From Mycobacterium sp. MS1601 (GTDB lineage Bacteria; Actinomycetota; Actinomycetes; Mycobacteriales; Mycobacteriaceae), in the NCBI RefSeq assembly GCF_001984215.1, contig NZ_CP019420.1, positions 1,364,001 through 1,428,000 of the forward strand: a stretch of 64,000 nt of DNA. Direction: 5' to 3'. Of this stretch, positions 1,122 through 32,368 are shown one piece after another. The notes below the pieces were generated by a model. That model saw only the letters and a program-made list of their open reading frames with translations, ran no database searches and was not told where the DNA came from. The position numbers were made by a program, and so were the translations under genes. Numbering within the stretch: position 1 is the stretch's first letter; each line of letters begins with the position of its first letter.

Positions 1122-1275
1122 GTGAGTTGGGCTACCACGGTCCTGCGATCCTTAAACCAGCTTGGTATCCGTCCGGCACGGTGACGCCGATCACCTCCTG
1201 TTAACAGCAGGTTAAGCAGCCTTCCAGCGATTGACGCGCGCTTGCCCCTGGTCGAACATAGTCGTGCAACCGCTT

Positions 1276-1291
1276 GCGCAAAGCATTGCAC
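1276..1291. promoter_or_regulatory. LacI-type operator, copy 1
   Basis: The 16-base element GCGCAA-AGCA-TTGCAC is an inverted repeat with one mismatch. It lies 26 bases before the GTG start of the flavin reductase gene. The same architecture, GCGCAA-N4-TTGCGC, recurs in front of the dioxygenase gene at 8502-8517, beside the LacI-family gene. A weak promoter candidate (TTGACG at 1231, AACATA at 1255) would place the operator just downstream of the transcription start, where a repressor would block elongation. The operator assignment is inference from the matched pair. Confidence 0.7.
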
Positions 1292-1317: not shown

Positions 1318-1944
1318 GTGCCGGCCAGGCAGATCGACATCACCGCGCTGGACCCCGCGCTGGCATACAAAGTGCTGGTGGGAGCGGTGCAGCCGCGACC
1401 GATCGCGTGGGTGTCCACGGCCGCCCCCGACGGCACCGCCAATCTGGCCCCCTTCAGTTTTTTCACCGTCGCATCCCGGGAACCGGCCACTGTGCTGGTG
1501 TCCATCGGCCCCAAGGCAGACGGCGGGGTGAAGGACACCCTGGCCAACGTGCGCGCCACCGGTGACTTCGTGGTGAACATCGCGTCCTTCGACCATCACC
1601 TCGCGGTGAGTACGTCAGCAGCCACGGTGGCCCCCGAGATCGACGAGTTCGAACTGGCCGAACTGACCCGGGTGGACTCCGACGTGGTGCGGGCGCCGCG
1701 GGTGGCCGAAGCACGCCTGAGCATCGAGTGCCGCCTGTTCGAGGAGCATCAAATCGGCACGGACACAGTCGTTTACGGGACCGTATTACGAGTTCACGCC
1801 GCTGAGGGCGTACTCGATGACACATTGCGGGTGGACAACGACGTACTCAATCCGTTGGGCCGTCTCGCCGGTCCGTGGTTCGCCGGCCCCCTGACCGCCA
1901 TCCCCGAAGGCTGGCAGGCCGAGTCGACGGTGACCCGTGGCTGA
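1318..1944 (+). CDS. Flavin reductase family protein (DIM6/NTAB type)
   Basis: A 208-residue FMN-binding split-barrel protein of the family that supplies reduced flavin or acts as a small flavoprotein oxidoreductase. The family core is plain: VGAVQPRPIAWVSTAAPDG, then NLAPFSFFTVASREPATVLVSIG and KDTLANVRATGDFVVNIAS. I chose GTG 1318 because GGGAGG sits six bases upstream and the protein then begins next to the conserved core; an ATG at 1231 would put the operator inside the gene. It is the first gene of the catabolic operon and overlaps the next by 8 bases. The monooxygenase two genes on looks single-component, so the partner of this reductase is unclear. Confidence 0.85.
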   Translation: MPARQIDITALDPALAYKVLVGAVQPRPIAWVSTAAPDGTANLAPFSFFTVASREPATVLVSIGPKADGGVKDTLANVRATGDFVVNIASFDHHLAVSTSAATVAPEIDEFELAELTRVDSDVVRAPRVAEARLSIECRLFEEHQIGTDTVVYGTVLRVHAAEGVLDDTLRVDNDVLNPLGRLAGPWFAGPLTAIPEGWQAESTVTRG

Positions 1945-2773
1945 ACACCTGCGTGTCGGCGTCGTACAACTGGAGGCGGTGCCGGGCCGCGCTGATCTGA
2001 ACCTGGCTGCAGCCGAGCGTCAGGTCACTCAGTTGGCCGGCCAGGGAGCCGGCGTGGTGGTCCTGCCGGAGTTGTTCGCCACCGGCTACGACCTCGACAT
2101 GGACCTCGACGGCGCCAGCCACGACGCCGACGAGCACACCGAGACGGTGACGGGTTGGGCGCGCGAGCACGACCTGGTGATCGCCACCGCGCTGCTGACC
2201 CGCTCGACTGCGGGAGAGTTGATCGACCTGGCCGTCGTCATCGGCGCCGAAGGCGTGCTGGCCTCGGCGTCCAAGCGGTTCCTCTGGGGCGGCGAGCGCC
2301 GCAAATTCGGCCGCCGCGTGGAACCCGGCGCACTGGTCAAAACACCTTTCGGCACAATCGGTGTCGCCATCTGTTATGAAGCGGGATTCCCCGAGGTGGT
2401 GCGCGATCTGGCGCTGCGCGGGGCGGACATCATCGCCATTCCTGCCGCTTTCGGCCGCCAGCGGCTCTACGCCTGGGAACTGCTCACCCGCTCACGCGCA
2501 CTGGAGAACGGCTGCTTCGTAGCAGCCGCCGGCCTCACCGGCACCAATCCCCGCGGAGTGTCGTTCGCCGGGCACAGCCGCATCATCTCGCCCACCGGAG
2601 ACATTCTCGCCGGTATGGCCATGTCCCCCGGCTCCGCCGTGGCCGCCGTGGACCTCGCTGACATCGATCGCTCCCGGGCCGAAATCCCCTACCTGTCAGA
2701 CCTCATCGCCGATCGCGTGGAGGCCGCCGCTGAAGACGAAGGAGAACAAACATGGCTGACGTCGACGTCGTGA
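1937..2773 (+). CDS. Carbon-nitrogen hydrolase (nitrilase superfamily amidase)
   Basis: A 278-residue cytosolic hydrolase of a C-N bond in an amide, carbamoyl or nitrile substrate. The catalytic triad is visible as Glu45 (VVLPELFATGY), Lys113 (ASKRFLWGG) and Cys146 (GVAICYEAGFPE). The size and the C-Y-E context fit the amidase/carbamoylase branches better than true nitrilases, which are longer. The GTG start overlaps the upstream stop by 8 bases, and the 3' end overlaps the monooxygenase start by 22 bases, so translation is coupled. In this operon it could hydrolyse a ring-cleavage amide such as maleamate, or deamidate the incoming pyridine; that role is inference. Confidence 0.87.
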   Translation: MAEHLRVGVVQLEAVPGRADLNLAAAERQVTQLAGQGAGVVVLPELFATGYDLDMDLDGASHDADEHTETVTGWAREHDLVIATALLTRSTAGELIDLAVVIGAEGVLASASKRFLWGGERRKFGRRVEPGALVKTPFGTIGVAICYEAGFPEVVRDLALRGADIIAIPAAFGRQRLYAWELLTRSRALENGCFVAAAGLTGTNPRGVSFAGHSRIISPTGDILAGMAMSPGSAVAAVDLADIDRSRAEIPYLSDLIADRVEAAAEDEGEQTWLTSTS

Positions 2774-3993
2774 TCTGCGGAGCGGGTATCGGTGGCCTGG
2801 CCGCCGCTGCCGCGCTGCGCGCACAGGGAATCGCGACCACCGTGCTGGAGCAGGCTCCGGCGCTCGGTGAGATCGGCGCAGGTCTGCAACTGGGCCCCAA
2901 TGCCACCCGCGTGCTGATGCACCTGGGCCTCGAAGAGGCCATGGACCGCATCTCCCTCGAGGTTCAGGAGACCGTCAACCGACGTTGGTCCGACGGCTCG
3001 ATCATTGCCAAGACCACGCTGGGAGCAAGTGCCACAGCACATTACGGATCGCCCTACCTCCAGGTGCACCGTGCCGACCTGCACGGCGCGCTACTGCAGG
3101 CCGCCGTGGGCGAGGAGTTCTCCGGCCCACCCGCCAAGATCCTGACCAACAGCACCGCCGTCGGCGTCGACGAGAGCGACCCGCTGCGGCCGCGCGTGCT
3201 GCTCGCCGACGGCACCGCCGTCGACGGCAACGTGGTGATCGGCGCCGACGGCGTGCGCTCCACCATCCGCGAGTACATCGGGGCACCCAACGATGTACTC
3301 GACAGCGGCGACATGGCGTTCCGCACGCTGATCGACGGTGACGCGGTGCGCAAGGACCCCACCACCCGCTTCATCGTCGACTGGCAGGCCGGCAATGTCT
3401 GGTTCGGGCCCGGCGGTCACCTGGTGGTCTACCCGGTGCGTAGGCAGAAACTGATCAACATCGTGGGTATCTTCCCGGTCAGCGACGAGGTGTCCCGCGA
3501 CTGGAGCAGGCCCGCCACCCATGAGGAGCTGCTCGCCGCCTACACGGGCTGGGATGAACGCGTCATCGCACTGCTCAGCAAGGCCACCGGCCCGATCGTG
3601 CTGTGGGCGCTGAAGTGCCAGGAACCGTTCTCGCAGTGGAACCGTGGCAACATCGCCCTGCTGGGTGACGCCGCCCATTCGATGGTTCCCTATGTGTCCC
3701 AGGGAGCTTCGCAGTCCATCGAGGACGCCGCAGTACTCGCCGAGGAACTGGCCGCCGTCGATGCCGCCGGCGTCTCCACCGCGCTGGAGGGCTACGTCCA
3801 GCGCCGGGCCGAACGCGCCCGTGCCGTTCAGATCGCCGCGATGGACAACCGCGGAGTGTTCCACCTCCCCGACGGGGACGCACAGCGCGAGCGTGACGCA
3901 AGGATGCGCGCGGTCGCCAAGAACGTCGACAGCAAGCTCGACTGGATCTACCAGGGCACGCCGCTGGGCGGGCTCGCCGCTTCCGCCCGCTGA
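2752..3993 (+). CDS. FAD-dependent monooxygenase (salicylate / 6-hydroxynicotinate hydroxylase type)
   Basis: A 413-residue group A flavoprotein hydroxylase that would use NAD(P)H and O2 to hydroxylate an aromatic ring, often with loss of a carboxylate. It has the N-terminal dinucleotide motif GAGIGG (residues 10-15), the DG motif near residue 168 (VVIGADGVRST) and the GD motif at 305-306 (LLGDAAHSMVPYVSQGA). This matches salicylate hydroxylase and NicC. Because a NicX-like dioxygenase lies in the same regulon, the likely product is 2,5-dihydroxypyridine, for example from 6-hydroxynicotinate or another hydroxypyridine. The family call is firm; the substrate is inferred from context. Confidence 0.88.
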   Translation: MADVDVVICGAGIGGLAAAAALRAQGIATTVLEQAPALGEIGAGLQLGPNATRVLMHLGLEEAMDRISLEVQETVNRRWSDGSIIAKTTLGASATAHYGSPYLQVHRADLHGALLQAAVGEEFSGPPAKILTNSTAVGVDESDPLRPRVLLADGTAVDGNVVIGADGVRSTIREYIGAPNDVLDSGDMAFRTLIDGDAVRKDPTTRFIVDWQAGNVWFGPGGHLVVYPVRRQKLINIVGIFPVSDEVSRDWSRPATHEELLAAYTGWDERVIALLSKATGPIVLWALKCQEPFSQWNRGNIALLGDAAHSMVPYVSQGASQSIEDAAVLAEELAAVDAAGVSTALEGYVQRRAERARAVQIAAMDNRGVFHLPDGDAQRERDARMRAVAKNVDSKLDWIYQGTPLGGLAASAR

Positions 3994-4020
3994 AACCTCC
4001 ACCTTCTGAAAGGCACAACC

Positions 4021-5043
4021 ATGAACGTTCGCAGAACCCGCGCAGCGGTTGCTCTCTTCGCCATCCCGCTGCTGATGACCGCCGCGTGCGGGTCCAGCTC
4101 CTCGGAGGAGGAGACCGCCGGCAGTGATTCCCCCGTCGTCAAGATGGACGGCGTCGTACCCGACCCCTTCGGCGTCGTGCCGGTGTTCGTCAAAGAGGAA
4201 GGGCTGGACAAGAAGTACGGCTTCACCCTCGAGTACACCGAAGGCGACCCGGCGGGCGGCACCACCCCGTTCCTGCAGGGCCAGGTACAGCTGGGCCCCG
4301 GTGACGCGGTGTCGGCGGCCATCGCCAACGGCGAAGGCCATGACACGGTCGCCTACTACCCGCTGATGTCCCAGACCGCAGGCATCATCGCCAGCGGCGC
4401 CAGCGGAATCAAGAGCCCGGAAGACCTGCGCGGCAAGCGGGTCGGCCACTTCGGCAACGACTCCGGCACCACGCAGGCCATCACGCTGACCCTCAAGGAC
4501 GGCTGGAACATCGACGTCAACAAGGACCTGACGCTGGTGCAGTCCTCGCCGGAAGCCCTGCCCGCGCTGCTGGCCCAGGGCGAGGTCGACGCGATCTTCA
4601 ACTTCGAGCCGTTCGGTGACCGCGCCGTCCAGATGGCCGACGGCACCCGCGTTCTCGAAGTCACCAAGTACTGGCAGGACAAGGAGGGCTGGGCACCGCC
4701 GCTGGCCATGCTGTGGTCCAACCGTAGCTGGCTCACCGAGAACCCAGAGCTGGCCAACAATGTCGTCGCCGCCTACAGCGAGGCAATGCAAACCATGATC
4801 GACGCCAACTACGAGACCTTCAAGGAAGAGCCGTACAAGTCGTTCCTGGACGCCGAGTCCGACGAGGAACTCGATCGCCTGGTGACCTACTGCCAGGATC
4901 TGCCCTGCTACACCAACTCGTGGACCGAGGAAGACGCCACCGCGATGAACGACTGGGTCAAGCGCATGGTCGACGACGGCATGCTGCCGAGCTACCCGGA
5001 GAACGCCCCGGCGGCCACCCTCGACTCGGTTCTGGCCAAATAG
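4021..5043 (+). CDS. NitT/TauT-type ABC importer, substrate-binding lipoprotein
   Basis: A 340-residue periplasmic-type binding protein of the SsuA/ThiY class. The signal peptide ends in a lipobox (LMTAAC, lipidated Cys23), followed by an acidic Ser/Glu linker. The mature part carries the typical KYGFTLEY, GVGD-like (LGPGDAVSAAIANG) and SPEDLRGKRVGHFGNDSG segments. GAAAGG lies about ten bases before the ATG. It is followed in the same operon by permease, ATPase and second permease genes. ThiY-like proteins bind pyrimidines and related small heterocycles, which would suit a pyridine-type substrate; specificity cannot be read from the sequence. Confidence 0.9.
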   Translation: MNVRRTRAAVALFAIPLLMTAACGSSSSEEETAGSDSPVVKMDGVVPDPFGVVPVFVKEEGLDKKYGFTLEYTEGDPAGGTTPFLQGQVQLGPGDAVSAAIANGEGHDTVAYYPLMSQTAGIIASGASGIKSPEDLRGKRVGHFGNDSGTTQAITLTLKDGWNIDVNKDLTLVQSSPEALPALLAQGEVDAIFNFEPFGDRAVQMADGTRVLEVTKYWQDKEGWAPPLAMLWSNRSWLTENPELANNVVAAYSEAMQTMIDANYETFKEEPYKSFLDAESDEELDRLVTYCQDLPCYTNSWTEEDATAMNDWVKRMVDDGMLPSYPENAPAATLDSVLAK

Positions 5044-5050
5044 TCGTTCC

Positions 5051-5809
5051 ATGTTGAGCAGACGGACCCAATCGGCCCTGTACTCGGTTGCCGGCGCCGC
5101 CTCCATCATCGCCCTGTGGGCGTTCGGCGGCGCCGGCAGCAACTTCATCGCCCCCATCGGCGAGGTGTTCGGTGAACTGCCCACGTTCCTGGCCGACCCC
5201 GACGTGTGGGCCAGCGTGGGTGAGACCTGGATGCGGGTGCTCATCTCGCTGGCGCTGGGGCTGGCGCTGGGCATCGCCGTGGCGGTGGTGATGTGGAAGT
5301 CGGATTTCTGGGGCCGTTTCGCCGGCGTGTACGTCGCGGTGTTCATCACCGTCCCGAGCACCATCACCGCGCTGATGGCGGTGTCGTTCTTCCGCAATGT
5401 CGAGCTGGGTGCGGTGGTGGTGCTGGTGGCCACCATCTTTCCGTTCGTGGCGCTGGTGGTGCTCTCCGCGCTGCGAGGAGTCGACCCTGGGCTACTGGAA
5501 ATGGCCGCGTCCTACCGCTATTCGCGCTGGCAGTACGTCAGGGAGATCCTGGTGCCCCACACCGCGGGGGCGGTGATGACGGCGATCCGCAACGAGCACG
5601 CCCATCTGTGGAAGGTGGTCGTCGTGGTGGAGATCTTCCTCGTCAGCAGCGGCATGGGGTTCCAGTTCGACCGTTCGTTTTCCAAGTTCAATCTCGTTGA
5701 CGTGATGCTGTGGCTGATCGTGTTCGCGGCCATTCTGCTGGCCACCGAGTACCTGGTGATCCGGCCTCTGGAGAAGAAGGCCCAGCATTGGACAGGAGTG
5801 TCGTCATGA
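5051..5809 (+). CDS. ABC importer permease 1 (SsuC/ThiX type)
   Basis: A 252-residue inner-membrane permease with about six hydrophobic segments. The cytoplasmic coupling loop that contacts the ATPase is recognisable (DPGLLEMAASYRYSRWQYVREI, with the conserved E-x-A-A-x-Y core). It starts 7 bases after the binding-protein stop and overlaps the ATPase gene by four bases (ATGA). The operon holds two different permease genes, so the transporter is probably heterodimeric in its membrane part. Confidence 0.9.
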   Translation: MLSRRTQSALYSVAGAASIIALWAFGGAGSNFIAPIGEVFGELPTFLADPDVWASVGETWMRVLISLALGLALGIAVAVVMWKSDFWGRFAGVYVAVFITVPSTITALMAVSFFRNVELGAVVVLVATIFPFVALVVLSALRGVDPGLLEMAASYRYSRWQYVREILVPHTAGAVMTAIRNEHAHLWKVVVVVEIFLVSSGMGFQFDRSFSKFNLVDVMLWLIVFAAILLATEYLVIRPLEKKAQHWTGVSS

Positions 5810-6624
5810 CCGTTCACCTCGAACCTCCGGCCACCGAAGAGATGAGTTTTCTCGATCTGTCGGGCATTTCGATCAACTACGGCACCAAGACCGCCGTGCG
5901 TGACATCGATCTACGGATCGGCGCAGACGAGTTCGTGTCGATCATCGGACCCAGCGGTTGCGGCAAGTCCACGCTGTTGCATGTGCTGGCCGGCCTGAAA
6001 TCGCCTGCGGCGGGCCAGATCACCTACCGCTGCACGGATGTCACCGCCGACGTGGGCAAGCGGCTGCGCACCGGATACGTCTTCCAGGATCACCGGCTGC
6101 TGCCCTGGCGCAGCGTGCGGCGCAACATCGAGATCGCGATGCGCAGCGCCGGGGTGCCGAAAGAGGAGTGGGCGGGCCAGATCGAGCGGTACCTGTCGCT
6201 GCTGCAGGTGCGAGACCACATCGATGCGTTGCCGATGAACCTCTCCGGCGGGCAGCGCCAGCGTGTGTCCATTGCCAGAGCGCTGGCCGTGCGACCCGAT
6301 CTGGTGCTGATGGACGAACCGTTCAGCGGCCTCGACGAGGTCACCGGTCGCACCATCCGGGTGGAACTGGACCGGATGCGGGAATCCTCGGCCACCCCGA
6401 CGCTGTTCGTCACGCACTCGATTCGCGAGGCCCTGTTCTTGTCCGACCGCATCCTCGTGCTCAGCCGGGGACCGGCCACGGTGCTCAAGGAGATCACCAT
6501 CGACCTGCCCCGGCCCCGCGCCTACGGCGATCCCCGCCTGGTCAAGCTGGAAGAGGAACTGGTCAACGAAGTGCTGCAGGTGTGGGAACCCACTGCGGAC
6601 AACGCCCCGGAGAAAACACCGTGA
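5806..6624 (+). CDS. ABC importer ATP-binding protein (SsuB/ThiZ type)
   Basis: A 272-residue ATPase that powers the importer. It has Walker A GPSGCGKST (residues 48-56), a Q-loop in YVFQDHRLLPW, signature LSGGQRQRVS (from about 146) and Walker B LVLMDEPFSGLD (from about 166), followed by the switch His in FVTHSIREA. The ATG overlaps the permease stop as ATGA, which decides the start against a longer upstream extension. Its 3' end overlaps the second permease by four bases (GTGA). Confidence 0.93.
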   Translation: MTVHLEPPATEEMSFLDLSGISINYGTKTAVRDIDLRIGADEFVSIIGPSGCGKSTLLHVLAGLKSPAAGQITYRCTDVTADVGKRLRTGYVFQDHRLLPWRSVRRNIEIAMRSAGVPKEEWAGQIERYLSLLQVRDHIDALPMNLSGGQRQRVSIARALAVRPDLVLMDEPFSGLDEVTGRTIRVELDRMRESSATPTLFVTHSIREALFLSDRILVLSRGPATVLKEITIDLPRPRAYGDPRLVKLEEELVNEVLQVWEPTADNAPEKTP

Positions 6625-7430
6625 CCACGCTGGACACCCCGGCCGTCGCCGAGCTCACCTCGACCCCGGAGCCGAAGCGAAACATCGCGTGGGTCAAGCG
6701 GTTCGGTGCCCCGGCACTGGCGATCCTGGTGGGGCTCGGCGTCTGGGAACTGGCCAGCATCACCTCCGACGGCTGGGTGCCGTCCATTGCGGACCTCTTC
6801 GAGGCCACCGGATCGGTGTTCTCGTCCGACACGCTGGTCTCCGATCTGCTGATCACGCTGCGACGGGTGCTGCTGGTATGGGCGGGGTCGGTGGCGGTGG
6901 GCCTGATCCTGGGCGTGGCAGCGGGTTTCAGCTGGCAGTTGCGAGCGTTCCTGCGCCCTGTCCTGGCGGTGGCGCTGGCAGTGCCCGACGTCGTCTACAT
7001 CATCATCGTCATCCTGATCCTCGGCACGGCGGAGAGCTCGGGCATCGTCGCGGTGATACTGGCCATCGCACCGCTGGTCATCAACGTGACCATGGCCTCG
7101 GTGCTGACCCGTGACATCCGCCTGGACGAGATGGCCGCCGCCTACAAGTTCGGGCCACTGACCTACATGCGGCACGTGCTGTGGTACCAGCTGCGCCCTG
7201 CCGCCGAGGCCGCGGCGCGGACGTCGTTCGCGTTCTCCTGGAAGCTGATCGTGCTGTTGGAGGCCATCACCTCCCCCGACGGCATCGGCGCCCGGATCAT
7301 CCAGGAGTTCAAGTTCTTGCGGCCGGCCGAGATGATCGTCTACGCACTGCTTTTCACGGCTTTGATGAAGGCCGTCGAGGTGCTGGTGATCGACCGGTTC
7401 CTGCGCACCAAGCCCGGCCCGGTCGCGTGA
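6621..7430 (+). CDS. ABC importer permease 2 (SsuC/ThiX type)
   Basis: A 269-residue permease with a roughly 30-residue cytoplasmic N-tail and about six membrane segments. It shows the same coupling-loop pattern as permease 1 (RLDEMAAAYKFGPLTYMRHVLW) but is clearly diverged from it. The GTG start lies in a GTGA overlap with the ATPase stop; a longer frame upstream is excluded because it would run through the ATPase gene. It is the last gene of the first catabolic operon and ends three bases from the stop of the convergent LacI gene. Confidence 0.9.
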   Translation: MTTLDTPAVAELTSTPEPKRNIAWVKRFGAPALAILVGLGVWELASITSDGWVPSIADLFEATGSVFSSDTLVSDLLITLRRVLLVWAGSVAVGLILGVAAGFSWQLRAFLRPVLAVALAVPDVVYIIIVILILGTAESSGIVAVILAIAPLVINVTMASVLTRDIRLDEMAAAYKFGPLTYMRHVLWYQLRPAAEAAARTSFAFSWKLIVLLEAITSPDGIGARIIQEFKFLRPAEMIVYALLFTALMKAVEVLVIDRFLRTKPGPVA

Positions 7431-7432
7431 GC

Positions 7433-8482
7433 TCAGCCCGTCGTCGACTCCCTGACCACCAGTTCGGTGGGCAGCGTGGTCGACGACGTCGGCAGGCCGT
7501 AGAGCACCGCCAGCAGGGTCTGCACCGCACGCACACCCATCTCCTCCATAGGGCTGCGCACCGTGGTCAGCGGGATCATCAGCTCGCCTGCCACCGGGAT
7601 GTCGTTGTAACCGGCCACCGCAACGTCACGACCCGGCCTGCGGTCCAGTTCGCGCAGGGCACCCATGGCGCCGATGGCGGAGAAGTCATTGACCGCGAAG
7701 ATGGCCGTCGGTGGTTTCGGTTGCGACAGCAGTTGCAGCGCGCCGGTGTGGCCGTGGTCGGCGTCGAAGCCCAGCTCCAGGATGTTGGTGGGCTTCACCT
7801 CGACACCCGCGGCCGCCAGAGCATCGACGCAGCCGTTGACACGGTCCACGCTGGTGCTGGCCCACATCGGGCCGGCAATGATGCCCACCTCGGTATGGCC
7901 AAGGGCGGCAAGGTGTTCCCCGATCTGGCGGCCGCCGCGGTAGTCGTCGCCGCACACCGACAGATAACCGGGGCTGCGGCGGGACACCAGGACAAAGCGG
8001 ACCTTGCGGCGTTCCAGTTCGGCGAGGTTGGTGCCGTCCAGGTGCGCGTCACCGAGGATCAGGCCGTCCACCCGGCGGCCGAGCAACAACTCGAAACGAC
8101 GGACCTGTTCGGCCGGTTCGTCGTGGGTGTTGGCCACGAAGGTCTCGTACCCGGCCTTGTCGGCCTCGGATTCGATGGCGTCGTACACCAGCGACAACAC
8201 GATGTCGGTGAGATGCGGCACCAGCACCCCGAGGGCGGTGGACCGGTTGGTGGTCAGGCTCGCGGCGTTCGGGTTCGGGGTGTAACGAAGTTCCTTGGCC
8301 AGAGCCACGATTCGAGCATCGGCTGCGCTGACCTGGGCGCCTGGAGTGGCCGCGCGACGCAACGCCCGCGACACCGTGGACACGTGCACACCGGCGGCAT
8401 CCGCAATCGTGCGCAACGTGACCGGACCATCGGGTGTCACCACACGCAATCCCTCCCTCAGCTGTCCCCCGCAATAGAGCAC
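7433..8482 (-). CDS. LacI-family transcriptional regulator
   Basis: A 349-residue regulator. The N-terminal LacI helix-turn-helix is at about residues 21-45 (VTLRTIADAAGVHVSTVSRAL), the hinge follows, and the rest is a periplasmic-binding-protein-like effector domain (LGVLVPHLTD, PTAIFAVNDFSAIGAMGAL, VAVAGYNDIP). Translation may begin at ATG 8482 or at an internal GTG about 15 codons in. The gene stands between the two catabolic units and diverges from the dioxygenase gene. The shared operators at 1276-1291 and 8502-8517 make it the obvious regulator of both, with a pathway intermediate as likely inducer. Confidence 0.9.
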   Translation of the reverse strand: MLYCGGQLREGLRVVTPDGPVTLRTIADAAGVHVSTVSRALRRAATPGAQVSAADARIVALAKELRYTPNPNAASLTTNRSTALGVLVPHLTDIVLSLVYDAIESEADKAGYETFVANTHDEPAEQVRRFELLLGRRVDGLILGDAHLDGTNLAELERRKVRFVLVSRRSPGYLSVCGDDYRGGRQIGEHLAALGHTEVGIIAGPMWASTSVDRVNGCVDALAAAGVEVKPTNILELGFDADHGHTGALQLLSQPKPPTAIFAVNDFSAIGAMGALRELDRRPGRDVAVAGYNDIPVAGELMIPLTTVRSPMEEMGVRAVQTLLAVLYGLPTSSTTLPTELVVRESTTG

Positions 8483-8501
8483 ACATCATAAGCAACCGTT
8501 C

Positions 8502-8517
8502 GCGCAATTCGTTGCGC
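8502..8517. promoter_or_regulatory. LacI-type operator, copy 2
   Basis: The perfect inverted repeat GCGCAA-TTCG-TTGCGC lies in the 64-base space between the divergent LacI gene (start 8482) and the dioxygenase gene (start 8547). It matches the element at 1276-1291 at 11 of 12 arm positions. From here the regulator could control itself and the dioxygenase-amidase pair. Confidence 0.78.
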
Positions 8518-8546
8518 AAAACCCGACCCACGACGAAAGAGGAGAA

Positions 8547-9575
8547 ATGACTGCAGATCTGACCGGCGTCGACTTGGTGAAGCTGTTCGCCCGCGAGTTC
8601 GAGCTGTGCAAGATGTCAGAAGGCGAACATGTCATCGTGCTCACCGAACCCACCAGCCGATCCGACTATGTGGCGGCCGCCTTCGGTGCCGCCCAACAGC
8701 TCGGTGCGCGTGTCGCCACCATCACCGCCCCGTCCGGCACCCCGATCCCCGAGCCAGCCACCCACACCGGCTCGGGTCCCGGGCTGCAATCCGTGCTGGA
8801 CAACCGCGTCATCCAGGAGACCCTCAAGGCCGCCGACATGGTGGTGGATCTGACCCACGAGGGCTTTGTGCACGCCCCCGTGCAGTCGGAGATACTCGCA
8901 GCCGGCACCCGCATCCTGTTCGTCTGCGACGCACCGGATGTGCTGGCCCGCAACCTGCCTTCGGTCACCGACACCGCACTCGTCGAGTCGGCACGAGACC
9001 TGATCACGGCGTCGTCGGTGATGACGGTGCGCTCCGAGGCGGGCACGGACTTCACCATCGACCTGGTGGACAGCCATCCCGGCTATCAGAAGGGTTTTGT
9101 GGACCAGCCGGGCAAGTGGGATCACTGGCCGTCGACCATGGTGGTGTGCTGGCCGATGACCTCCAACGGCACCATCGTGCTGACTGCGGGCGACATCCTG
9201 CTGCCCTTCAAGGAATACGTCTCCAGCGACATCCGGCTCGACGTGGCCGACGGCCGCATCGAGGGAATCTCGGGTGGGCCGGACGCCAAACGGCTCCAGC
9301 AGTTCTTCGACGATTCCGACGACCATTGGGCGCGTTCGCTGTCGCACATGGGTTGGGGTCTGATGAAGAGCGCCAACTGGTTTGCCACCGCGATGTACTC
9401 CAAGCACGAGATCATGGGCATGGACGCCCGCGCCTTCGCAGGCAACTTCCTGTGGTCGACCGGGCCGCACCCGTTCCTCAAGCACGATTCGTTCGCCCAC
9501 CTCGACATCGCCATGCGCGGGTGCACCATCGTGGTGGACGACACCCCGGTGACCAAGGATGGTCGGCTGCTGTGA
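8547..9575 (+). CDS. nicX: NicX-like 2,5-dihydroxypyridine 5,6-dioxygenase
   Basis: A 342-residue enzyme of the aminopeptidase-fold extradiol family that opens 2,5-dihydroxypyridine to N-formylmaleamate using Fe(II) and O2. Blocks recalled from Pseudomonas putida NicX are present: GKWDHWPS, GDILLPFKEY, SHMGWGLMKSANW, MDARAFAGNFLWSTGP and HLDIAMR. His267, His318 and Asp320 fit the His/His/Asp iron triad described for NicX (from memory H265, H318, D320). GAGGAG precedes the ATG, and a LacI-type operator lies 29 bases upstream. The end overlaps the amidase start as GTGA. A related M29-type peptidase is the alternative, but the NicX-specific blocks argue against it. Confidence 0.85.
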   Translation: MTADLTGVDLVKLFAREFELCKMSEGEHVIVLTEPTSRSDYVAAAFGAAQQLGARVATITAPSGTPIPEPATHTGSGPGLQSVLDNRVIQETLKAADMVVDLTHEGFVHAPVQSEILAAGTRILFVCDAPDVLARNLPSVTDTALVESARDLITASSVMTVRSEAGTDFTIDLVDSHPGYQKGFVDQPGKWDHWPSTMVVCWPMTSNGTIVLTAGDILLPFKEYVSSDIRLDVADGRIEGISGGPDAKRLQQFFDDSDDHWARSLSHMGWGLMKSANWFATAMYSKHEIMGMDARAFAGNFLWSTGPHPFLKHDSFAHLDIAMRGCTIVVDDTPVTKDGRLL

Positions 9576-10972
9576 GTGATCTCCTCGATCAGGACGCCTG
9601 CGCCCAGGCCACCGCGATCCAGGACGGGGTGGTCTCGGCCCGAGAGCTCGCCGAGGCCGCGATCGCGCGCATCGAAGCCGGAAATCCCGAACTGAACGCG
9701 CTGAGCTGGCAGCGGTTCGAGCAGGCCCTGCAGGACTGCGAACGGGTCAATCCCGCCGCCCCGTTCGCCGGGGTTCCGATCCTGCTCAAAGACCACCGCT
9801 GCACGGCGGCCGGTCAGGAAACCCGTTATGGAACAACTGCCTTGGCGAACACCACGGTGGCAGGCACGGTCGACAGCAACATCTACCGCGCCATCATCGA
9901 CGCCGGCTTCGTGGTGCTCGGCCGCACCACGGTGCCGGAGTTCGCCACCGCCTTCGTCACCGAGTCCGAAGCCGCCGGGGTGACCCGCAACCCACGTGCC
10001 CTCGACCGCACGCCCGGCGGCTCCAGCGGCGGCGCCGCGGCGGCCGTGGCTGCCGGCTGGGTGGCCGTCGCGCACGCCACCGACGGCGGCGGCTCGATCC
10101 GCCAGCCCGCCAGCTGTTGTGGTCTGGTGGGGCTCAAGCCGTCACGCGGGCGCATCAGCATGGGACCCGAGGCCGGTGAATCCTGGGCGGGTGCCACTGT
10201 CGAGGGTGTGATCACCCGGACGGTGCGGGATGCCGCAGCGGTGACGGCCGCCCTTGCCAAGCCGTTCCTCGGCGACCCGTATTCCCTTGTCACACCGGCG
10301 CTTGCCCCCACACCCGCCACGGTGGGTCCGCTGCGGATCGGTGTCATGTCACAGCACCCGTCGGGCACCCCGTGGCCGTCCGGCGATGTCGGCGCGGTGT
10401 TCCAGAAGGTCGCCGCCGTCCTGTCCGACCGCGGACACCACCTCAGCGACGGATTCCCCGCTGCGCTCGCCGAAACCGAGTATCAGGGCCACTACGACAC
10501 GATCGTCGACGTCGACGTCGAGCTGCTGTCCCGCAAGGTCGAAGCGGCGCTGGGCCGTCCGGTCGAGGACGCCGAGCTCGCGCCGCGCAATGCGCAGAAG
10601 CGCGCCCGGGCGCGGGCGCTGGATGCGCCGGCCTATCTGGAGTCCCGGTACTGGCTGGCCGGGTGGACCTACCGCCTGCAGTCGTGGTGGTCGGACGTCG
10701 ATCTGCTGATGACGCCCACCATGGGTGACCTTCCAGCCTCAGCGGATGGGTCCGCCCACGACGCTGACGCCGGCATCGTGTCCCGCTCGACACAGATGAT
10801 GGCGATGACGAACTTCGCGAACATCGGCGGCCTGCCCGCTATCAGCCTTCCCCTGGGCCAGACCGACGCGGGCGTGCCCATCGGTGTGCAGTTCGTCGGT
10901 CGCCCCGGCGCGGAGAACATTCTGGTGGCGCTGGCGGCGCACTTCGAAGCGGAAGGCCCCTGGGCTATTTGA
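9572..10972 (+). CDS. Amidase-signature family amidohydrolase
   Basis: A 466-residue amidase with the Ser-cisSer-Lys triad: Lys73 (PILLKDH), cis-Ser152 (GGSSGG) and nucleophile Ser175 (TDGGGSIRQPA). The GTG start overlaps the dioxygenase stop by four bases, so the two are translationally coupled; the long frame upstream is a shadow of the dioxygenase gene. In known nicotinate pathways the step after NicX is done by NicD (an alpha/beta hydrolase) and then NicF (isochorismatase-like). Neither is encoded here, so this enzyme may deformylate N-formylmaleamate or hydrolyse maleamate. That role is inference. Confidence 0.88.
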   Translation: MSDLLDQDACAQATAIQDGVVSARELAEAAIARIEAGNPELNALSWQRFEQALQDCERVNPAAPFAGVPILLKDHRCTAAGQETRYGTTALANTTVAGTVDSNIYRAIIDAGFVVLGRTTVPEFATAFVTESEAAGVTRNPRALDRTPGGSSGGAAAAVAAGWVAVAHATDGGGSIRQPASCCGLVGLKPSRGRISMGPEAGESWAGATVEGVITRTVRDAAAVTAALAKPFLGDPYSLVTPALAPTPATVGPLRIGVMSQHPSGTPWPSGDVGAVFQKVAAVLSDRGHHLSDGFPAALAETEYQGHYDTIVDVDVELLSRKVEAALGRPVEDAELAPRNAQKRARARALDAPAYLESRYWLAGWTYRLQSWWSDVDLLMTPTMGDLPASADGSAHDADAGIVSRSTQMMAMTNFANIGGLPAISLPLGQTDAGVPIGVQFVGRPGAENILVALAAHFEAEGPWAI

Positions 10973-11828
10973 GTAGTTTCGACATCCGCCGGTCAGCCAG
11001 CACCTTGCCGCCGGTCTGGCAGGTGGCACAGTACTGGAAAGACTTGTCGGCGAACGACACTTCCCGCACGGTGTCACCGCACACCGGGCAGGGCAACCCG
11101 GTGCGTGCGTGCACCCGCAGCCCGGACCGCTTCTCGCCCTTGAGGGTTGCGGCCTTCTGACCTACCGAGCGGGCCACCGCGTCGGTGAGCACCGAGATCA
11201 TGGCGTTGTGCAGCGCCGACAGTTGAGCGTCGGTGAGCTTGCCCGCGGTGGCGAAGGGGGACAGCTTGGCGACGTGCAGGATCTCGTCGCTGTAGGCATT
11301 GCCGATACCGGCGATCACCGACTGGTCGGTGATCACCGATTTGATCCGGCCGGTGTTGCCGCGCAGCACCGCGGCCAGGTCGTCGGGTCCCAGCGACAGC
11401 GCATCAGGCCCCAGCGCCGCGATGCCGGGGACCTTGGTGGGGTCGTCGACCAGCCACACCGCCAGCCGCTTCTGGGTGCCTGCCTCGGTGAGGTCGAATC
11501 CCGGCGCCTCTCCTGGTGTCCCGAGGTGCACCCGCAGGGCGATCGGACCCTTGCCCGGTTTCAGCGGTGTCGCGGTCAGCTTGTCCGACCAGCGCAACCA
11601 GCCCGCCCGCGACAGATGAGTGATCAGGTGCAACTCCCCCACCTGCAGGCCCAGGTACTTGGCCCACCGATTGGCGCCGGTGACGGTGTGCCCGTACAGC
11701 GCGGTGATCGGCGGGTCGAAGGTCTTGAGCACCGAGAACGCCGAGACGTCGATGCGCCCGACCGGCAGCCCCACGGCATGGTTGCGCAGGTAGTCGGCGA
11801 GCGCTTCGACCTCAGGCAGTTCAGGCAC
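10965..11828 (-). CDS. Formamidopyrimidine-DNA glycosylase / endonuclease VIII family protein
   Basis: A 287-residue base-excision repair glycosylase/lyase. Taking GTG 11828 as start gives the obligatory N-terminus (M)PELPEVEAL, in which processed Pro2 is the nucleophile and Glu3 the catalytic acid; a longer frame would bury it. The helix-two-turn-helix contains GIGNAYSDEILH. The C-terminal zinc finger is complete (CPVC to CATC), with QKAATLKGEKRSGLRVHARTG just before it. It may be the second Fpg-like paralogue of mycobacteria. The stop overlaps the amidase end by 8 bases, convergently. Confidence 0.9.
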   Translation of the reverse strand: MPELPEVEALADYLRNHAVGLPVGRIDVSAFSVLKTFDPPITALYGHTVTGANRWAKYLGLQVGELHLITHLSRAGWLRWSDKLTATPLKPGKGPIALRVHLGTPGEAPGFDLTEAGTQKRLAVWLVDDPTKVPGIAALGPDALSLGPDDLAAVLRGNTGRIKSVITDQSVIAGIGNAYSDEILHVAKLSPFATAGKLTDAQLSALHNAMISVLTDAVARSVGQKAATLKGEKRSGLRVHARTGLPCPVCGDTVREVSFADKSFQYCATCQTGGKVLADRRMSKLLK

Positions 11829-11887
11829 ATGTCCAGTTTGCCGACCATCTGCAACCGTTGTCATCCCTTATCCGCAAAGATGAATCG

Positions 11888-31528: not shown

Positions 31529-32368
31529 ATGTTGTCATCCCCCTCAGCAGAAGCCCAGACCCGGTTCGTCGACGGGCCGAGCGCACGCTTCGCCTACCGC
31601 CGGTTCGGCGCACACTCGGACGTCCCGCTTGTGCTCGCCTTGCGCTTCCGCGGAACGATGGACCACTGGGATCCTGCGTTCCTCGACGAGTTGGCCTCCG
31701 AGCGCGACGTGATCATCTTCGACAACATCGGCCACAGCAAAACCACTGGCACCGCACCGACCACGATGGATGCACTCGCGGGCGGTCTCGTCGAATTTGT
31801 CGACGCACTGGGTCTTTCCGAAATCGACCTGCTGGGATGGTCGCTCGGCGGCATCGTGGTCCAGGCGGCCACCCTGCAACGTCCCGACCTGGTGCGCCGA
31901 CTGGTGATCGCAGGCAGTTCTCCCGGCGGTGGTGTTCCCGGTATGCCGCAACCGGATCCCACGGTCTGGCAGGTGGCCACCAAACCGGTCAACGACGACG
32001 ACGATTTCCTGTACCTCTTCTTCCCGGAGGACGGCGACGGGCACGCACTCGGAGTGAAGTCGCTGAGCCGACTGGCCTCCCGCACCCAAGCCGACGATCA
32101 CGCTCCGGTGTCGCCGGAGACCATGCAGGCGCAGCTGGCCGTCATCGCGTCGACCGGCTCGAGCGTGTGGGATCGCTTGGGCGAGGTGCGGATTCCGGTC
32201 CTGGTGGCCAACGGCGCACATGACCGCATGATCGACGCCTACGCCACCTACGCGATGGCCGGCCGTCTACCCGACGCCAAGGCGATCCTCTACAGCGACG
32301 CAGGTCACGGCTTCCTGTTCCAGCACATCGACGATTTCACCGCGGAGGTTCTCACCTTCCTGTTGTAG
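31529..32368 (+). CDS. Alpha/beta-fold hydrolase
   Basis: A 279-residue hydrolase of the TAP/epoxide-hydrolase-like branch. The nucleophile elbow is GWSLGG with Ser105, a downstream acid lies in VLVANGAHDRMID, and the catalytic His is in DAGHGFLFQH. The usual HG oxyanion motif is replaced by LRFRGTMDHWD, as in a subgroup of these enzymes. The substrate is unknown. It is divergent from the protease operon; its 3' end overlaps the alcohol dehydrogenase end by 17 bases, convergently. Confidence 0.88.
   Translation: MLSSPSAEAQTRFVDGPSARFAYRRFGAHSDVPLVLALRFRGTMDHWDPAFLDELASERDVIIFDNIGHSKTTGTAPTTMDALAGGLVEFVDALGLSEIDLLGWSLGGIVVQAATLQRPDLVRRLVIAGSSPGGGVPGMPQPDPTVWQVATKPVNDDDDFLYLFFPEDGDGHALGVKSLSRLASRTQADDHAPVSPETMQAQLAVIASTGSSVWDRLGEVRIPVLVANGAHDRMIDAYATYAMAGRLPDAKAILYSDAGHGFLFQHIDDFTAEVLTFLL

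Follow-up and report, generated by a model that had tools for sequence, protein, structure and literature searches.

The window examined here is the 64,000-nucleotide stretch G000:C1:1364001-1428000 from the 6.83 Mb genome of Mycobacterium sp. MS1601, and ten genes at positions 1318-10972 of it form a cluster that includes a homologue of NicX, the 2,5-dihydroxypyridine 5,6-dioxygenase of Pseudomonas putida. The open reading frames and Pfam matches agree with the families and places that a first-pass annotation, made from the sequence alone, had given for these genes. Two plus-strand operons flank a divergent gene for a LacI-family regulator. The first (1318-7430) encodes, in order, a flavin-reductase-like protein (FR), a nitrilase-superfamily amidase (NIT), a NicC-like monooxygenase (FMO), and an importer of the ATP-binding cassette (ABC) type, arranged as substrate-binding protein, permease, ATPase, and permease; the second (8547-10972) encodes NicX and an amidase-signature hydrolase (AMI). 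Overlaps of 8 bases (FR/NIT), 22 bases (NIT/FMO), and 4 bases (NicX/AMI) link neighboring genes, and the gene after AMI (10965-11864, minus strand), a relative of formamidopyrimidine-DNA glycosylase, is regarded as lying outside the cluster. Its likeliest role is the degradation of a nicotinate-type pyridine ring through the known NicX ring opening, and the comparisons below suggest, with a probability of about 0.6, that FR, NIT, and a second amidase stand in for NicD, NicF, and the maleate isomerase NicE, under LacI-family control through the site GCAANNNNTTGC; this is a joint figure, shared with the alternative order of amide cleavage discussed below.

The P. putida nic pathway comprises the gene set NicAB-NicC-NicX-NicD-NicF-NicE, and the replacement of its lower part is seen most clearly by comparing NicX loci. 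Contigs were scanned with a 17-row NicX alignment, consisting of the window protein and 16 of the 120 proteins listed among 1983 found; 82 stretches encode a relative, and the 78 distinct loci returned make 79 with the window. In marker searches with author-set identity and coverage thresholds, FR and NIT occur together in 18 of these loci (variant loci) and NicD or NicF in 50 (canonical loci), both sets in none and neither in 11, ten of which end at a contig edge. The Fisher p value for this exclusion is 1.3e-10, which is descriptive rather than an independent-sample test, as the loci are related. NicE is found in 30 of the 50 canonical loci and in none of the 18 NIT loci, and LacI relatives are found in 16 of the 18. 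In a check of the markers, the NicE probe was found to match solved maleate cis-trans isomerases (1.8e-73) and the NicF probe isochorismatase-family hydrolases including 3uao, and the NicD probe is assigned to the alpha/beta hydrolases at the level of family. On a NicX tree built by a quick method (75 rows: 21 FR-NIT, 52 NicD/F, and two unlabelled), the FR-NIT versus NicD/F label requires four changes, at least two of them forced by supported branches, so the variant label is not one inherited block. This pattern, established by comparative genomics with the chemistry predicted, bears out the earlier proposal of a NicX route in which other enzymes take the place of NicD and NicF. As a separate observation, L143 (G256) combines a NicX (40%) with NicF- and NicE-like genes and a CN_hydrolase protein (28% to NIT), with no NicD match at E 1e-5, and is possibly an intermediate arrangement.

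Table 1. Genes and operator-like sites of the NicX cluster (positions in the window)
Feature	Position	Strand	Evidence and remarks
Tandem pair of operator-like 12-mers, GCAACCGCTTGC GCAAAGCATTGC, ahead of the FR operon	1266..1289		24-base arrangement also in Mycolicibacterium palauense and Rhodococcus loci
FR, flavin-reductase-like split-barrel protein of the flavin mononucleotide (FMN) family; pairs with NIT	1318..1944	+	Flavin_Reduct PF01613, 3.1e-26
NIT, nitrilase-superfamily (nitrilase-fold) amidase	1937..2773	+	CN_hydrolase PF00795, 1.3e-42
FMO, NicC-like flavin adenine dinucleotide (FAD) monooxygenase, decarboxylating hydroxylase family	2752..3993	+	FAD_binding_3 PF01494, 2.3e-25
NitT/TauT-type substrate-binding protein (NMT1/THI5-like)	4021..5043	+	PF09084, 7.4e-15; lipobox-like Cys by eye
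ABC permease	5051..5809	+	BPD_transp_1 PF00528
ABC ATPase	5806..6624	+	PF00005, 4.5e-32; start picked by eye, ATGA overlap
Second ABC permease	6621..7430	+	BPD_transp_1 PF00528
LacI-family regulator, divergent from NicX	7433..8482	-	PF00356/PF13377
Operator-like 12-mer, GCAATTCGTTGC, LacI-NicX intergenic region	8504..8515		
NicX, 2,5-dihydroxypyridine 5,6-dioxygenase homologue	8547..9575	+	PDB 7cn3, E 4.7e-65
AMI, amidase-signature hydrolase	9572..10972	+	Amidase PF01425, 6.9e-86

The assignment of NicX is based on alignment to the solved P. putida enzyme (PDB 7cn3), which phmmer matches at E 4.7e-65 over residues 7-339, i.e., over its length. Iron in the P. putida enzyme is bound by H265, S302, H318, and D320, and R293 is a further residue of note (PMC7910607). 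These five residues align with H267, S304, H318, D320, and R295 of the window protein, so that all four iron ligands are kept, and the same positions are conserved in every one of the 85 sequences aligned, that of the window among them (86 loci were supplied, and L082 yielded no full-length sequence). The iron triad His267, His318, and Asp320 had thus been named correctly, and the case that had been put forward as refuting it, an M29 peptidase lacking the triad, does not apply, as the ligands are kept. The window protein matches no family, M29 included, in the Pfam (E 1e-3) and NCBIfam copies scanned. Relatives of NicX bear PF26233 in a precomputed listing, one relative is named an M29 family metallopeptidase by its source, and NicX itself has been described as aminopeptidase-related (PMC7356986). 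Of the substrate residues, H105 and H189 are kept as H109 and H193, and E177 is changed to Gln181. By strong homology, the window NicX is predicted to open the ring of 2,5-dihydroxypyridine to N-formylmaleamate. A relative at E 1e-40 or better is encoded in 24 of 401 family genomes, the strain's own included, and the best after the window's own is 65% identical; one same-genus genome (G450) pairs a 59% identical NicX with NicF, NicE, and NicD relatives. The contig scan revealed a single other genome with the window's gene set, that of M. palauense, whose NicX is 84% identical.

The two amidases of the window had been proposed to replace NicD and NicF, and this holds for one of them: NIT is the conserved replacement, whereas AMI is confined to the window and M. 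palauense, two of the 20 variant clusters, and is ruled out as a conserved pathway part, and a formamidase, AmiF, is found instead in 16 of the 20. The 16 comprise 14 of the 18 variant loci together with L141 and L142, and the set of 20 omits L140, whose NicX is identical to that of L010. AMI carries the amidase motifs PILLKD and GGSSGG, and its best PDB match is 6-aminohexanoate-cyclic-dimer hydrolase (1.9e-78); among 396 other genomes of the order, three hold an AMI relative at E 1e-110 or better (47-48%), amid genes that look unrelated by eye. The AmiF marker matches solved formamidases, which are also the closest solved relatives of the L021 protein (E 1.6e-111), and all eight AmiF proteins tested from other variant clusters exceed the 406-bit cut-off of NCBIfam NF009803 (414.8-500.9), in contrast to the window NIT (29.4 bits). 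At the level of whole genomes (13 variant genomes, G000 and G061-G072, and three canonical ones, several of them draft assemblies), AmiF at 55% identity or more is encoded in nine of the 13, and nothing above 36% in G000, G061, G070, and G071. Formamidases and other amidases of Rhodococcus have been suggested to take part in pyridine breakdown (PMC10005059). Within the titles, abstract openings, or passages of the open-access papers searched, no description of a NicX cluster with a nitrilase or formamidase was found.

The genes replaced were sought in the window and in the same genomes. Inside the window, the NicF (E 1e-8), NicD (1e-10), and NicE (1e-3) probes matched nothing, as the first-pass annotation had stated; an alpha/beta hydrolase at 31529-32368, of the NicD fold class, looks unrelated and lies beyond the reach of the NicD probe. 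NicD-like proteins at E 1e-10 or better are encoded in two of the 13 variant genomes (G000, in a second cluster, and G071 at 30%), NicF-like proteins at 50% identity or more in two (G000 and G064; G069 has one at 38%), and NicE-like proteins at 48% or more in three (G000, G064, and G065), with weaker NicE relatives in most others, as compared with all three canonical genomes in each case. The draft genome of M. palauense has no NicD match and only weak NicF-like (37% over part) and NicE-like (29-31%) ones.

NIT carries the catalytic residues E45, K113, and C146, which are invariant in 13 sequences, and the top folds for its model (predicted local distance difference test score, pLDDT, 88.5) are a Pyrococcus horikoshii amidase with glutaramide and mouse nitrilase-2, an omega-amidase. 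The FR model (pLDDT 90.1) is most similar in fold to 3bpk (nitrilotriacetate monooxygenase component B), the NbaA nitroreductase 4z85, and other FMN-binding proteins including 3zod and 3zoe, which are reported to be promiscuous ene-reductases; below these stand many two-component flavin reductases, which is also compatible with an ordinary reductase. FR is found with NIT in 18 of 19 FR loci, and FMO is present in 73 loci, of which just 16 have FR; three loci hold FR, NIT, and NicX without an FMO orthologue in the available stretch (the L070 contig spans 9.7 kb, and L073 carries another FAD oxygenase). Because FR tracks NIT rather than FMO, it is assigned to the lower branch with NIT, and a role as redox partner of the FAD monooxygenase is disfavored and improbable.

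For the operator-like site GCAANNNNTTGC, 48 copies were counted across 20 variant loci (398,143 bases) and four across 50 canonical loci (992,377 bases). Of the 48, 44 copies, in 18 of the 20 loci, lie at the start of AmiF, FR, NIT, or NicX (no more than 160 bases ahead of the chosen start or 80 bases into the gene); near-copies among the Rhodococcus loci mean that these counts are not independent. The operator-like sites at 1266, 1278, and 8504 precede both operons of the window; in M. palauense, FR is likewise preceded by an exact pair, and the sites ahead of NicX differ by one mismatch. The window holds seven copies in total, as against a shuffled mean of 0.64; the other four (29817, 33522, 35940, and 60271) lie within long open frames and are taken as chance occurrences. 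Taken by itself, the shorter core TTGCGCAA shows no significant excess in the window (3 versus 0.92 expected), and GCAAYCGNTTGC is not clearly enriched genome-wide, with 18 matches on both strands of G000 versus 10 for the reversed control, and 6 versus 7 in M. palauense. The LacI-family regulator may bind the GCAANNNNTTGC sites and control both operons. Elsewhere in the genome, two GCAATCGATTGC palindromes (L151:7620 and 7731) lie around the start of a Peripla_BP_6 binding-protein gene and before a gene of the major facilitator superfamily (MFS); about 7-9 kb from them are genes for a dicarboxylate carrier of the MatC type and for a second NicE-like protein.

As to the substrate, a relative of the molybdenum-binding (Mo) subunit of molybdenum hydroxylases is present in 11 of the 18 variant loci (nine Rhodococcus or Rhodococcoides, one Nocardia, and one Gordonia; domains were inspected for the L021 and L023 subunits), and from its position beside NicC- and NicX-like genes this hydroxylase may act on nicotinate, which makes a nicotinate-type substrate the likeliest. 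NicC binds 6-hydroxynicotinate through His211 and Tyr215 (PMC9304392), and FMO keeps both as H223 and Y227; the vanillate hydroxylase shows the same His and Tyr, so they are not diagnostic. The C202 position is Gly in FMO, and in place of H47 it has Gln46, a feature shared with fungal HxnX; there is genetic evidence that HxnX converts 6-hydroxynicotinate (PMC9304392). The earlier suggestion of a substrate other than nicotinate is therefore not favored for the clade, in view of the Mo-subunits and the two kept NicC residues; for the window, which has no such hydroxylase, a nicotinate-type substrate is only a candidate. About 180 kb away in the same genome, a two-subunit molybdenum hydroxylase (L152:3846-6472) is preceded at 27 bases by an exact GCAATCGATTGC palindrome, which is one of the genome-wide GCAAYCGNTTGC matches; as a lead only, it is a possible upper-pathway enzyme acting in trans. 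The homologous hydroxylase of M. palauense (48%) lacks an exact site and lies among other genes, and relatives of the L152 enzyme in 714 plasmid records, all below 60% identity, were not used as evidence. The variant cluster of M. vaccae (L018:7778-20292) includes an ABC ATPase, a weak NMT1-type binding protein, a UbiD-type decarboxylase, a UbiX-like flavoprotein, and a second flavin reductase, which suggests a further carboxyl group on its substrate; L019 shows the same markers in the marker search.

Taken together, the cluster would be an inducible catabolic regulon for a 6-hydroxynicotinate-like pyridine. The NitT/TauT-type importer would take up the pyridine, which FMO, judging from its family and two kept binding residues, would hydroxylate and decarboxylate to 2,5-dihydroxypyridine; NicX would then open the ring to N-formylmaleamate, and FR, NIT, and the second amidase would take over the work of NicD, NicF, and NicE, with the LacI-family regulator governing both operons through GCAANNNNTTGC. 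In the preferred chemistry, NIT would cleave the maleyl-side acyl C-N bond to give a C4 dicarboxylate and formamide. In most relatives AmiF would then turn the formamide into formate and ammonia, a step that would fall to AMI or another amidase in the window strain; this order is preferred because a formamidase is the commonest further partner. A more tentative proposal, which we consider rather doubtful as it stands, is that FR, rather than being a flavin reductase, is itself a catalytic flavoprotein that reduces (or isomerizes) the maleyl double bond of N-formylmaleamate, after which NIT, as an omega-amidase-like enzyme, would free succinate (or fumarate) and formamide and a formamidase would finish the route. 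NicD, NicF, and maleate isomerase would all be dispensable in this branch, which would fit the tie of FR to NIT, the lack of NicE in the NIT loci and of close NicE relatives in 10 of the 13 variant genomes, and, from the modelled structure, the fold likeness of FR to NbaA and 3zod/3zoe. The substrate, the order of amide cleavage, the FR reaction, the end product, and LacI binding to its sites are all predicted features of this scheme.

Several observations weigh against the proposed replacement. The activities of NIT, FR, AMI, NicX, and FMO are predictions from sequence, and hydrolysis alone leaves FR unexplained. FMO scores higher against the decarboxylating vanillate and 4-hydroxybenzoate hydroxylases than against NicC (vanillate 1-hydroxylase 251 bits, 1.5e-73; tropone 2-monooxygenase 210; NicC 172, 1.3e-49), and as its closest solved relative is not NicC, it is NicC-like only. 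The lack of a molybdenum hydroxylase in the window cluster leaves the step to 6-hydroxynicotinate unaccounted for, the best relative of the variant-loci Mo-subunit in the window genome being only 40% identical. Neither this genome nor that of M. palauense has an AmiF orthologue, so the formamide step is left to AMI or another enzyme. FR, NIT, and NicX occur in L072 and L073 without AmiF, AMI, or an operator near a start. The substrate residue E177 of P. putida NicX, whose change to Ala lowered activity to 2.7% (PMC7910607), is Gln181 in the window and Gln in 83 of 85 sequences, in canonical and variant clusters alike, so that a residue that matters for turnover is altered and does not separate the two types. 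Beyond the window, some 9 kb upstream of FR, L118:3406-3948 encodes an isochorismatase-family protein (PF00857), of NicF's family, which the NicF probe did not pick up at E 1e-8. Finally, the absence of NicD, NicF, and the isomerase is true of the window, but beyond it the genome holds a second, canonical cluster (L117, G000:C1:2614000-2633500) whose genes could complete the pathway in trans. It encodes NicX (36-38%, with Phe at substrate residue His105 and Glu177 kept), NicF-like (64%), NicD-like (52%), and NicE-like (55%) proteins, a Mo-subunit, a GntR regulator, a FAD monooxygenase, an ammonium-transporter-family protein, and a PEP-utiliser-domain protein.

The closest rival shares the replacement core and differs in the order of cleavage: AmiF, or AMI in the window, would deformylate N-formylmaleamate as NicD does, and NIT would hydrolyze maleamate as NicF does, with no formamide formed. 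This is a serious candidate, held at somewhat less than even odds overall; in the window, where AmiF is missing, the odds of the two orders are nearly even. The nearest folds of NIT, nitrilase-2 and the glutaramide-bound amidase, would suit dicarboxylate monoamides, and the 4-base overlap of AMI with NicX is expected of an enzyme acting after NicX; against this, AmiF falls in the formamidase equivalog family, Helicobacter pylori AmiF is reported to be specific for formamide, and FR is still unexplained. That the clade instead cleaves a related ring, whose product FR, NIT, and AMI would process, is unlikely. The Gln at E177 and the effect of E177A would agree with it, as would L072 and L073, where FR, NIT, and NicX stand beside a P450, an AllG-family protein, and a cytosine/purine-type permease with no FMO orthologue; however, clusters that encode NicD-, NicF-, and NicE-type proteins together with a NicC-like enzyme have the Gln form too, and those clusters fit the N-formylmaleamate route. 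These two loci (L072:6437-13913 and L073:2854-13969; NicX 53%; L073 with additional upstream Fer2, FAD oxygenase, and short-chain dehydrogenase/reductase genes) possibly represent another upper pathway feeding the same FR-NIT-NicX module. It is quite improbable that the window cluster only supplies 2,5-dihydroxypyridine or N-formylmaleamate to the NicD, NicF, and NicE of the second cluster, since, for all the likeness of those proteins and the second NicX beside them, M. palauense has the same cluster with no orthologue-grade match to the three, 11 of 13 variant genomes lack a NicD match at E 1e-10, and the second cluster has no GCAANNNNTTGC site.

If the replacement is correct, a group of actinobacteria ends NicX-type pyridine cleavage with genes named merely flavin reductase, nitrilase, formamidase, or amidase, and the split-barrel FMN family could gain a catabolic role after ring cleavage. 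FR-NIT-NicX together with the operator could serve as a marker for such pathways, and the comparison sets NicX with NicD/NicF/NicE against NicX with FR/NIT/AmiF on one intermediate.

A nitrilase-type amidase in a pyridine-ring setting is not new in itself, because the nicotine pathway of Paenarthrobacter nicotinovorans ends its pyridine-ring route with one, a 2-oxoglutaramate amidase (PMC6214936); unlike the window, that pathway runs through 2,3,6-trihydroxypyridine and has no NicX (PMC6214936). The hxn nicotinate pathway of Aspergillus nidulans shares the 2,5-dihydroxypyridine intermediate and involves an alkene reductase and an amide hydrolase, but it has no NicX, and the ring is hydroxylated and reduced ahead of opening (PMC9304392). 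The kpi system of Arthrobacter sp. IN13 for 4-hydroxypyridine likewise combines a flavin monooxygenase, a ring-opening dioxygenase of hydrolase-like fold, and a deformylase-like hydrolase, and differs in its 3,4-dihydroxypyridine intermediate and in using KpiC of the amidohydrolase family and the alpha/beta hydrolase KpiB (PMC7356986). With the P. putida nic system, the window shares a NicX homologue with all iron ligands and a NicC-like flavin monooxygenase, whereas NicD, NicF, and NicE are absent from its cluster, which has FR, NIT, AMI, a LacI-type regulator, and an ABC importer. The canonical clusters (50 loci of Streptomyces, Janibacter, and others, e.g., L055 and L033) have NicX of the same clade (56-66% identity) and an FMO orthologue (44-49%), but unlike the window they carry NicD- and NicF-type genes, NicE in 30 of the 50, usually a molybdenum hydroxylase, and no NIT. 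The variant clusters of Rhodococcus, Nocardia, and Gordonia (e.g., L021, L045, and L010) share LacI, FR, NIT, NicX, FMO, and the GCAANNNNTTGC sites with the window, and have AmiF, an MFS transporter, and a molybdenum hydroxylase where the window has AMI and an ABC importer.

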